From assembly GCF_011077955.1 (NCBI RefSeq), contig NZ_JAALBX010000002.1:310001-374000 (forward strand): a DNA stretch of 64,000 nucleotides, given 5' to 3'. A model generated the notes under the pieces. That model made no database searches, had not been told where the DNA came from, and was given only the letters and a program-made list of their open reading frames with translations. This document shows positions 52,165 through 58,689 of this stretch, in pieces. How positions within the stretch are numbered: position 1 is the first letter of the stretch; every line of letters starts with the position of its first letter. The position numbers were made by a program, and so were the translations under genes. This DNA comes from Citrobacter freundii. GTDB lineage: Bacteria > Pseudomonadota > Gammaproteobacteria > Enterobacterales > Enterobacteriaceae.

Positions 52165-52500
52165 TTCCCATGTCATTCCTTTTCCCCGACAATCCATGCA
52201 AGCTTAAATAAATCCTGCCTTTTAACGTTTTTTTATTGCCATAAAAGAAGTTAAATACCTCGCTTCGATTAAAGTCAAAGACTTAACCTTAAAAAATAAA
52301 CGTTGCTTAATAGGGGCAACTGTGTGACTAATAGGGCGTCGGTTTGGTTCACAGACTCACTAAAGCGGTTAGTAAAGCAGTTCTCATCTCAAGCGTTATC
52401 CATCGATAATCCTTCAATTTGAGCCTCCTTATCGTTATTAAATTATTCTGTGGCGGAACCATCAACGCCGTAAGGCCCTGTGCAAATTAAGGTATTATCA
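52165..52500 (+). other. Promoter and long 5' leader of the csp gene
   Basis: 336 bases without a gene. Cold-inducible csp genes carry 5' leaders of about 150 bases that refold on cooling, and this gap has room for one. GGTTCACAGACTCACTAAAG near 52336 and repeated AAAGCGGTTAGTAAAGCAGTT at 52363 are candidates for leader elements. I cannot match the E. coli cold-box sequence with confidence. Confidence 0.45.
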
Positions 52501-52713
52501 ATGTCTAACAAAATTACTGGTTCTGTAAAATGGTTTAACGAGTCTAAAGGCTTCGGTTTTATCACTCCTGATAACGGCAGCAAAGATGTGTTTGTCCATT
52601 TTTCTGCAATCCAGAGTGGCGGCTTTAAAACCCTGAACGAAGGGCAGAAAGTAGAATTTACCATTGAAGATGGCCAAAAAGGTCCTTCTGCTGGAAATGT
52701 GTTCGCAATTTAA
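52501..52713 (+). CDS. Cold-shock protein (CspA family)
   Basis: A 70-residue single OB-fold RNA chaperone. RNP1 (KGFGFIT) and RNP2 (VFVHFSAI) are intact, with the flanking aromatic residues W and F. Residues fit CspC/CspE best in places ([15 protein letters not shown]) and CspB/CspG in others (MSNKITG), so I leave the gene symbol open. Its location upstream of thrS, next to a YmcF-like gene, parallels the cspG-ymcF arrangement of E. coli and suggests a cold-inducible member. An AAGGTA site precedes the ATG. Confidence 0.93.
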
Positions 52714-52864
52714 GAACCCATTTTTCCGCCATTCATTCAACTGCGTTTGATATTATCGACAGACTGTTGGAATGAGGTTCGATCCCTCAATGGCGGCTCC
52801 GTTTTAAAAAATTAATCTGCTAAAGCGATTATTCTATTGCTGGATAAGGTTTTCTGGGGGACTT

Positions 52865-53125
52865 ATGCGTACTCCTTTTTCCTTTTTTCCAATGCCAATG
52901 ATTGTCAAACACACCCTGCCGTCCGGTCTTATAAAAGACTATACTGTTTTGATTACGGATGTTATTGATTCAACCGGTTCCCGGTATGCTAAATACCCTA
53001 ATGGAGCTGAAGTCCGTATCTCCGCGCTTCGTTTCTTGCAGCTTGAAATGGCCCAGTCCGATCTGTCGACGCTTGAACCCGTGCCTCTGCCAGAGGAAGT
53101 TATCAGACGCGATATGCCGCACTGA
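52865..53125 (+). CDS. Hypothetical small protein in the cold-shock cluster
   Basis: An 86-residue protein with a strong GGGGGA site six bases before the ATG. It reads MRTPFSFFPMPMIVKHTLPS, then strand-rich YTVLITDVIDSTGSRYAK, a helical ALRFLQLEMAQSDL and an acidic proline-rich tail (EPVPLPEEVIRRD). No signal peptide, no TM and no cysteine. I do not recognise the family. It lies 152 bases after a csp gene and 342 bases before the YmcF-like gene, so a role in cold response is only suggested by position. Confidence 0.6.
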   Translation: MRTPFSFFPMPMIVKHTLPSGLIKDYTVLITDVIDSTGSRYAKYPNGAEVRISALRFLQLEMAQSDLSTLEPVPLPEEVIRRDMPH

Positions 53126-53466
53126 GTAAAACATTTCACTTTATGCGAGCCCTGGCGTGATTTCATCGCAGGAAATGACTCGGGATGATGTTTGAAGGGT
53201 AGAGAAGGTAAGACAAGCTCTACTTAACGTAAAGTGAATTAATGGGTTGCTAATATCTCGCATACGTGCGTTAATGATACATAGTTCAGAAATTGATAAT
53301 TTATTTTAGACGTTAACACTACTCTTCTTTACAATTACTCTTCCTGTTTCTTCACTTTACACCCACAATGCTTCAAATTTTCGCTATACTCAAACAACGT
53401 AAGTAAGCGAACTCTCTGAAGACATGTTCTTAGATTTTTGCGTGATAGCGCATTAAGGAAAATATT
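53126..53466 (+). other. Promoter and leader region of the YmcF-like gene
   Basis: 341 bases, AT-rich, no gene of its own. A TATACT at 53385-53390 could be the -10 of a promoter giving a leader of about 70 bases before the AUU start at 53467. AAGGA at 53455-53459 is the likely ribosome-binding site. Confidence 0.45.
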
Positions 53467-53655
53467 ATTAATTTACATATCCATTTTAGGTGCCCTTGTT
53501 GTCATGGGTCGCAGTATCGCACATCGCATTTTGATGTTTCAGCCAATAATCCTTTTGGCGCGAAATGTATTTTTTGTAAATCTGCAATGATCACCTTTGA
53601 CCATATCCCTGCTCTTATTCACTCCAATAAGATGTCACTCAGTAATCACAATTAA
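53467..53655 (+). CDS. ymcF: YmcF/YnfQ-like zinc-ribbon cold-shock protein, apparent AUU start
   Basis: An uninterrupted 62-codon frame reading NLHIHFRCPCCHGSQYRTS, then NPFGAKCIFCKSAMITFD. It has paired CxxC motifs (codons 9-12 and 34-37) of a zinc ribbon. I recognise E. coli YmcF and YnfQ, small proteins made at low temperature beside cspG/cspI and reported to start at a non-AUG codon; the 62-codon length also fits my memory of YmcF. There is no ATG, GTG or TTG between the upstream stop and the conserved region; ATT at 53467 lies seven bases after AAGGA, with a second ATT one codon earlier. Start choice is inference; the coding frame is well supported. ATG-based gene callers would miss it. 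Confidence 0.82.
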   Translation: MNLHIHFRCPCCHGSQYRTSHFDVSANNPFGAKCIFCKSAMITFDHIPALIHSNKMSLSNHN

Positions 53656-54189
53656 AACCGAAAGGTTTTTGTGATTGTCCCCCTGTTATTGCGGTTCTGC
53701 TCATTAATAAAAGTTAATAAACTAAGATAATTCTATTAAAAAAGTCATTATCTTTTTGGCGTGCAGAACCTGGCGTTACTTACTCAAAAACTGTGTTTAA
53801 CAGGCATTCGTAAAATTATTTCACATCGTGTGAACGCGCGTGCGTTTTAGAAAATGAGTGACGTTTATTACCGTGCCCTGGCATTCCACGCTACGGCGTG
53901 ACGCAGGGTACCAGGCAGGTGCAATTTTTTAAAAGATGATCCGGGTAGCCTTGAGCATCAGGCCGAAACCATAAGGCAGGGCGTTTAACCCCCTGTCGCG
54001 GATGATCAAAACACCATGAAACGAATTGACCTAAACGGGTGCATTAGCCCTTTTTTTGGTGTTAACATGGTTCTACGTCTCTGGGGAAAACATGCAAACG
54101 AACGCCCGGTTACGTACAAATTTGTGTTCCAATTTAACGTTTGTTGGTTAGATGGTTACGCAAAGCTTTGAATAAACTCATTAAATTCT
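53656..54189 (+). other. thrS upstream region with competing hairpins
   Basis: 534 bases between the YmcF-like gene and the thrS operator. Its right part is the thrS leader. The middle (53874-54056) holds strong hairpins, described separately. A 51-codon frame at 54016-54171 has no good ribosome-binding site and is probably chance. Confidence 0.5.
53874..54056 (+). ncRNA. Candidate structured RNA or leader element upstream of thrS
   Basis: Hairpin A is CACGC-TACG-GCGTG (53887-53900), which can be extended by CCCTG/CAGGG (53876-53908) or, alternatively, by TGCC-TGG/CCAGGCA to 53917. Hairpin B is GGCAGGG / CCCTGTC (53975-53997). Its left arm also pairs as AAGGC with GCCTT at 53948-53952, so two folds exclude each other. 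GATGATC occurs at both 53935-53941 and 54001-54007. GGGTGCATTAGCCC then seven T at 54037-54057 could be a weak terminator. I know no named RNA with this layout; it may be an sRNA or an attenuator in front of thrS. Confidence 0.4.
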
Positions 54190-54235
54190 TTCGTATGTGA
54201 TCTTGCGTGTGGGTCACCACTGCGAATAAGGAAAA
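54190..54235 (+). promoter_or_regulatory. thrS translational operator
   Basis: The leader just before thrS has a hairpin GTGATC / GGGTCAC (54197-54217) whose loop TTGCGTGTG contains CGT (54206-54208), the anticodon of tRNA-Thr. In E. coli threonyl-tRNA synthetase binds the equivalent stem-loop and blocks its own translation. The following AATAAGGA site is single-stranded in the E. coli model. The sequence is nearly the same as in E. coli (CTTGCG here for CTTTCG there). Confidence 0.88.
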
Positions 54236-54238
54236 AAA

Positions 54239-56167: not shown

Positions 56168-57009
<842 letters not shown>

Positions 57010-57446: not shown

Positions 57447-57532
57447 ACTTTCCGGCCCGTCGTTTTATTGACATTTCAAGTCGATAGCCTTTCAATAGAC
57501 GAACACGTTCGATAATTAAGGTAACTGCAAGC

Positions 57533-58689
<1,157 letters not shown>

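Follow-up and report, generated by a model that had tools for sequence, protein, structure and literature searches.

Bacterial start codons outside the NUG class are usually seen as isolated oddities, infC and pcnB being the familiar cases. The closest described systems to the gene considered here are ymcF and ynfQ of Escherichia coli, which follow genes of the cspA family, ynfQ lying after cspI in strain K-12 and ymcF after cspG in strain 116. Work by D'Lima and colleagues, which appeared in J Proteome Res in 2017, is said to have mapped the E. coli starts experimentally to ATT. In RefSeq the first codon of both genes is likewise ATT, placed 10 nt past the csp stop. For the protein, a model of YnfQ displays a rubredoxin topology (PMC13348028). 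Near-cognate codons also act as genuine starts in Streptomyces sigR (GTC; PMC5472188) and in Yersinia RcsD-Hpt (AUU; PMC10191623), where the protein and its context are unrelated and no csp operon is involved.

The gene under study lies in a 64,000-nt stretch of DNA, here called the window, and is a further copy of this known kind of gene. It shares with E. coli YmcF and YnfQ the profile, the size, the CPCC and CIFC knuckles, the ATT column and the placement of the Shine-Dalgarno (SD) sequence. Whereas the E. coli genes begin 10 nt after csp, however, no csp adjoins the window copy, in front of which stand only a short leader and a csp-type promoter. The features of the locus are as follows.

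52338-52723: thermoregulator leader (Rfam RF01766) of a separate csp gene; the sole local RF01766 match
52501..52713, + strand: cspA-family gene, separate and not an adjacent partner; its stop lies 753 nt before AUU 53467
52865..53125, + strand: 86-aa ORF, located after the csp gene and before the ymcF promoter; no significant family match
53247..53275, + strand: csp-type promoter, TTGCTA-17 nt-GTTAAT with TGC preceding the second hexamer; 200 nt from the start
53276..53466, + strand: short leader without an intact csp and without an Rfam cspA thermoregulator match
53424..53456, + strand: mini-ORF MFLDFCVIAH, 10 codons, no clear SD; its TAA lies 10 nt before AUU 53467
53455..53459, + strand: Shine-Dalgarno sequence AAGGA
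53464..53466, + strand: alternative AUU, one codon 5' of 53467 and 4 nt past the SD
53467..53469, + strand: putative start codon AUU, 7 nt past AAGGA, in the same column as the E. coli ymcF/ynfQ ATT
53467..53655, + strand: ymcF-like gene, AUU start, 62 codons plus TAA, knuckles CPCC and CIFC
56171..56173, + strand: AUU start of infC, read by eye, 2.7 kb downstream of the ymcF copy

The reading frame is closed on its 5' side by an in-frame TAG at 53446-53448, and the codons from there to the first cysteine run CGC ATT AAG GAA AAT ATT ATT AAT TTA CAT ATC CAT TTT AGG, with no ATG, GTG or TTG among them. The first in-frame ATG is codon 41, past both CxxC motifs, and the near-cognate codons just 3' of AAGGA are the ATT at 53464 and the ATT at 53467. 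The putative start at 53467 therefore falls, as in infC-like genes, outside ATG, GTG and TTG. An earlier note on this DNA had described a 62-codon frame with paired CxxC motifs and a ribosome-binding site but with no ATG, GTG or TTG, lying in an 'empty' 1.1 kb upstream of thrS and resembling YmcF/YnfQ with an AUU start. The frame, motifs, ribosome-binding site and coordinates all agree with that description, the codon reading upholds the missing canonical start, and the empty stretch corresponds to 53126-54238. The homology and its AUU start are borne out by a match to PF23641 and by column alignment with the E. coli ATT starts, and the core of the frame is conserved across relatives.

As to which codon is used, the two AUU codons are adjacent and differ in their spacing from the SD (4 vs 7 nt), and N-termini vary within the family, the homologous column holding just 20 of the 48 AUG calls in a broad set of loci defined below (20 of 32 for those with an SD). 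Both points would allow initiation at AUU 53464 or at some other near-cognate codon. AUU 53467, however, stands in the E. coli start column, a spacing of 7–8 nt from the SD is the common one, and among the best 80 of 206 relatives the same column contains 36 of the 43 AUG starts and all 36 AUU/AUC starts, which makes a start other than 53467 improbable.

The window protein matches Pfam PF23641 (YmcF-like) at 99.8 bits (E = 9.8e-29, cut-off 27) and the NCBIfam model NF047912 below threshold only, and in alignments it contains the YmcF-like core CPxC ... GSQYR ... NPxGAKCIFCK. The cysteines, SQYR, N28, G31, A32, IF, K38 and M41 stay the same throughout 28 diverse sequences. When the window copy is set against those of four congeners, the 34-codon core gives a pN of about 0.06, a pS of 0.62 to 0.84 and a dN/dS of at most 0.05; saturation of synonymous sites affects two of these four comparisons, and constraint is looser in the C-terminal tail. 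Across the family, pooled pN/pS for the core is 0.26 and the median over 189 random pairs 0.21. Judged by these substitution patterns, the core of the window gene is under purifying selection and, because of the PF23641 score together with the low dN/dS of the core, the gene is far from a chance match. No intact adjacent csp was found in any of the five Atlantibacter genomes (the putative genus of the window) and the start is weak, as might befit an untranslated relic or a gene decaying after the loss of csp, but every cysteine is intact and the core dN/dS is as low as just described, albeit with half of the pairs saturated, and such a fate is highly unlikely. The encoded protein is predicted to bind metal, probably as a rubredoxin-like knuckle. 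Like the rubredoxin-like knuckle miniproteins it carries two CxxC knuckles within about 60 amino acids; unlike them, it finds no rubredoxin at E up to 1 in a PDB sequence search, the best match (E 0.047) being unconvincing.

Within the sample of the GTDB family, 131 of 392 genomes have the YmcF domain; the order sample has it in 21 of 394 genomes (20 above the cut-off, all of them of that same family) and the class sample in one of 274, which is the window genome. Within Atlantibacter the gene occurs in five of five genomes, namely the window and four congeners. On viral contigs 76 of 80 ymcF loci are csp-adjacent and 75 of those 76 start with a non-NUG codon, in a highly redundant set that comprises 23 distinct contexts among its 80 loci; ymcF travels with csp on these prophage-like contigs.

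The region upstream of the window copy contains a csp-type promoter but no recognisable partner gene. The stop of the nearest csp (52501..52713) lies 777 nt before the first cysteine of the ymcF copy. The 86-aa ORF at 52865-53125 was matched by neither Pfam nor NCBIfam at E up to 1 and just weakly by PHROG (E 0.36), and tblastn with this ORF gave nothing in the other fetched YmcF loci. An Rfam search returned no RF01766 match in the leader of the ymcF copy, which also has no clear similarity to csp or to csp leaders (best z 3.2 of ten references) and whose RNA structure is not better than that of shuffles (z -0.7). In the four congeners a csp-type promoter of the form TTGMTT-17-GTTAAT, again preceded by TGC, lies at 375-383 nt, approximately the distance found in loci where csp is present. 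The stretch past this promoter resembles the csp leaders and genes of other genera, with a best-of-ten z of 6.3 to 10.7 (ten references, 40 shuffles; the weaker comparisons fall to z 1.5), and no csp gene can be recognised in it. We infer a loss of csp and not an original absence, a direction that tree counts do not supply.

The promoter call is based on the family motif and not on a general sigma-70 scan, which found 4 promoters against 4.9 expected from shuffles, the csp-type promoter not being among them. The motif scan detected it in 53 of 79 loci with an adjacent csp and in 30 of 61 without one, against three of 2800 shuffled upstream regions and none of 140 downstream regions, and is thus specific. 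The presence of this motif suggests transcription with the csp regulon. The cold regulation that had been proposed for the gene is thereby favoured indirectly, by a motif 200 nt upstream of the start.

The relationship between start codon and csp was followed in two samples, which overlap in genomes and are not independent. One consists of the best 80 of 206 relatives. The other, the broad set, has 150 loci, E. coli included, of which 141 were counted after fragments or loci with a misplaced first cysteine (L052, L070, L123 and L150) and members of another family (L145-L149) had been dropped; the frame-broken L137 was additionally excluded from the tree. As a second cistron behind a gene of the cspA family, ymcF is found in 80 of the 141 broad loci and in 33 of the best 80 of 206. 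Among these best 80, all 33 csp-adjacent copies begin with AUU (30) or AUC (3) and never with AUG, whereas 43 of the 46 copies without an adjacent csp begin with AUG, a count in which two Atlantibacter loci reading ATT-ATG are, like in the broad set, taken as AUG and which would be 41 of 46 were they taken as ATT. The AUG copies without an adjacent csp come from Enterobacter, Klebsiella, Leclercia, Lelliottia, Silvania and other genera, and the three AUU copies from Pseudescherichia vulneris, Escherichia sp. ESNIH1 and Kluyvera intermedia.

In the broad set, 62 of the 80 adjacent loci have a non-NUG start and 18 a NUG start, against 25 and 36, respectively, of the 61 non-adjacent loci; these non-NUG counts are conservative because the start-calling rule prefers NUG codons. 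Restriction to SD-supported starts (n=105) gives non-NUG starts in 54 of 60 adjacent vs 15 of 45 non-adjacent loci, and counting per genus gives non-NUG to NUG numbers of 21/2 and 6/13, respectively (Fisher p 8e-5). Four genera contain both arrangements, and in these the adjacent copies are non-AUG and the remaining copies AUG, although one of the four depends on a weak start call and another is represented by a csp-ymcF fusion. In Citrobacter sedlakii (L017/L167) the stop of csp is lost, csp runs in frame into ymcF and the ymcF start is AUG; L017 is treated as not adjacent in the broad-set counts and as a separate class in the best-80 set. The predicted Csp-YmcF fusion of C. sedlakii has about 130 residues, and its leader still matches the cspA thermoregulator at 83.4 bits. 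In adjacent, SD-supported loci the distance from csp stop to ymcF start is 10 nt in 32 of 60 cases and 9 nt in a further nine, and at 9–10 nt the SD touches or overlaps the csp stop codon.

The five csp-less Atlantibacter genomes read ATT, ATT, ATT-ATG, ATT-ATG and ATG at the start. The window is one of the exceptions that are non-adjacent yet non-NUG in the broad set (25 of 61), which also include a Pseudescherichia group and an AUC group. Together with the 18 of 80 adjacent loci that have a canonical start, these exceptions mean that csp adjacency is neither necessary nor sufficient for a non-NUG start. Start class and adjacency are both clustered on the tree, which provides three supported independent contrasts, about two for and 0.2-0.5 against the association; a phylogenetically corrected test is not significant, because the tree of so short a gene resolves just these three. 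From sequence comparison, then, start class tracks csp adjacency as a strong pattern and not yet as a demonstrated cause. What is new here is this association, along with the csp-less Atlantibacter copies in which a csp-type promoter is left; in the literature searched, which comprised open-licence papers, no report was found that ties the start codon to csp adjacency across the family.

Two further observations concern copies outside csp operons. In YmcF copies of three genera (L047-L049, L116, L125, L117, L120, L121, L129, L131, L119, L132 and L133) there is no csp upstream in the fetched flank, an ATC lies seven codons before the first cysteine in 13 of 13 loci, and no in-frame NUG occurs in the 20 codons before that cysteine. 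In L093, an Rfam RyhB match (1727-1791, 76.6 bits) lies about 150 nt past an orphan, ATG-started ymcF, in convergent orientation.

The explanation considered best, with a probability of roughly 0.55, is that the window gene is a functional ymcF that derives from a csp-ymcF cold-shock operon, in which the AUU was coupled to csp, and that with csp gone in Atlantibacter it has become an AUU orphan. The frame, the AUU column, the csp-type promoter, the lack of an intact adjacent csp in all five genomes and the start-class association are the parts of this account that come from sequence; the others, which we infer, are the cold mRNA, the initiator tRNA at AUU, re-initiation and selection for AUG. 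The csp-type promoter would have the mRNA made in the cold, and initiator tRNA would read the AUU. Within a csp operon, ribosomes that terminate on csp, next to the SD and about 10 nt from the AUU, would re-initiate, so that YmcF would be produced only alongside Csp and at a low ratio to it. Once csp was lost, selection would favour AUG, and the window copy would be a csp orphan in which the AUU is still kept. On the best reading, AUU is retained while ribosomes finishing csp feed ymcF, or else to cap output. The persistence of AUU in orphans like the window copy argues either that csp is not needed for AUU to be used or that the switch is unfinished. As regards coupling, PMC10666635 reports a steep loss with distance and, for E. 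coli gene pairs, which peak at +10 nt, deems independent or weakly coupled initiation likelier, and on that account csp-ymcF coupling is put forward here as an interpretation. Read-through or frameshifting from Csp as the source of YmcF was considered and rejected, since the phase from csp to ymcF varies (62, 14 and 4 loci) and the TAG shuts the frame of the window copy on its 5' side.

A bolder form of the argument, which is offered tentatively, treats the start codon as an evolutionary switch set by operon architecture. AUU or AUC would serve mainly ribosomes handed on from csp, tying YmcF production to that of Csp, loss or fusion of csp would drive the change to AUG, and Atlantibacter would be mid-switch. 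Under this version the window copy possibly keeps the hand-over through a 10-codon remnant ORF. The TAA of the mini-ORF at 53424-53456 is spaced from the AUU by the modal csp-to-ymcF distance, and the mini-ORF is a possible remnant of the 3' end of csp. In a test for termination-reinitiation pairs it was the sole upstream ORF ending near the window start, and it has no clear SD. Coupling retained through a mini-ORF was rejected as a rule for AUU orphans, as L034, L065 and L066, for example, have no such ORF. The messages of csp genes are very abundant in the cold, and AUU could instead tune dosage, a weak start holding YmcF far below Csp with no hand-over of ribosomes being necessary. An efficiency of ATT of about 0.3% that of ATG (Hecht 2017, cited in PMC10666635) would suit this purpose, as would a start class that follows csp adjacency, but the csp-type promoter is still found in 24 of the 36 non-adjacent copies with a canonical start, so reduced mRNA supply by itself is not an obvious reason for the switch to AUG. 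Dosage tuning is considered less likely than the coupled-operon origin.

It is also conceivable, although rather unlikely, that AUU ties the output of YmcF to free IF-3 independently of csp, with IF-3 raised in the cold capping or timing synthesis. Non-NUG starts without an adjacent csp do occur in several lineages (the 25 of 61 that include the window), infC and Streptomyces sigR provide precedents (PMC5472188), and excess IF3 inhibits non-canonical starts, as cited in PMC2268962. Were IF-3 control retained, however, AUG would not be expected in 43 of the 46 copies that have no adjacent csp among the best 80 of 206, and the sign predicted for the cold is repression. The ratio of initiation factors to ribosomes is given as rising about 3-fold in the cold (PMC6511846) and excess IF3 as cutting re-initiation about threefold, the latter with an AUG reporter and with the effect tied by the authors to a missing SD (PMC2268962); as far as these accounts go, IF-3 acting alone would make initiation at AUU less efficient in the cold. 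Rising IF-3 would perhaps limit YmcF to a pulse.

The IF-3 argument had been linked in the earlier note to infC, said to be AUU-initiated and only 2.7 kb away. The codon and the distance are correct, with ATT at 56171, but the meaning attached to them does not survive, as the proximity is conserved across neither thrS loci nor YmcF loci, which also counts against IF-3 control. Functional linkage to infC/thrS was rejected on the finding that one of 30 thrS loci, namely the window, has a YmcF profile match within 1.5 kb upstream (thrS matches in 55 of 60 genomes, 30 loci fetched including the window, combined profile). Seen from the other side, thrS falls within the flanks (1.5-2 kb) of four of 150 loci, of which the window (L003) and L106 are true YmcF and L145 and L148 belong to the other family. 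The infC gene, with its AUU start and autoregulation, resembles the window copy in combining a non-NUG start with a good SD and differs from it in that an effect of YmcF on initiation is not evidenced here. Zinc-ribbon genes within about 2 kb upstream of thrS were seen in other genera, with YmcF in L106 and the other family, divergently oriented, in L145/L148; small zinc-ribbon genes near thrS at G321:C67:154901-155026 and G293:C1:1782313-1782435 score below the cut-off of that other family. Their position is possibly due to chance. At 57528-57651 of the window, before pheS, there is an Rfam Phe leader (RF01859, 60 bits vs 55), which is an ordinary attenuator.

A second small CxxC/CxxC family, with the pattern IPNxKFxCPVC...PHGAxCxxCGTRLTA (L371-L382, L395 and L396, the same family as L145-L149), was noted separately. 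In its best loci ATT or ATC comes immediately after a strong SD (GGAGGG in 13 of 14), and 13 of the 14 lack a NUG in the 20 codons before the first cysteine, the remaining locus having just an internal TTG at -4. At exactly the ATT/ATC column, ATG stands in relatives that are more distant (L383, L384, L397 and L400). A csp-type promoter is found in none of the 14 loci, L395 alone has a csp in its 3.2-kb locus, where it is not adjacent, and GATATATC lies upstream in 10 of 14.

For annotation the matter would be relevant, as gene finders demanding ATG, GTG or TTG miss genes of this type, of which a second family has now been found. For the family itself, the retention of AUU or AUC over many genera, with a tendency towards AUG where csp is absent, amounts to a natural, replicated test of why a start codon that is normally rejected should be kept, and the window copy, which is without a neighbouring csp and yet appears to have AUU, is a natural test case.
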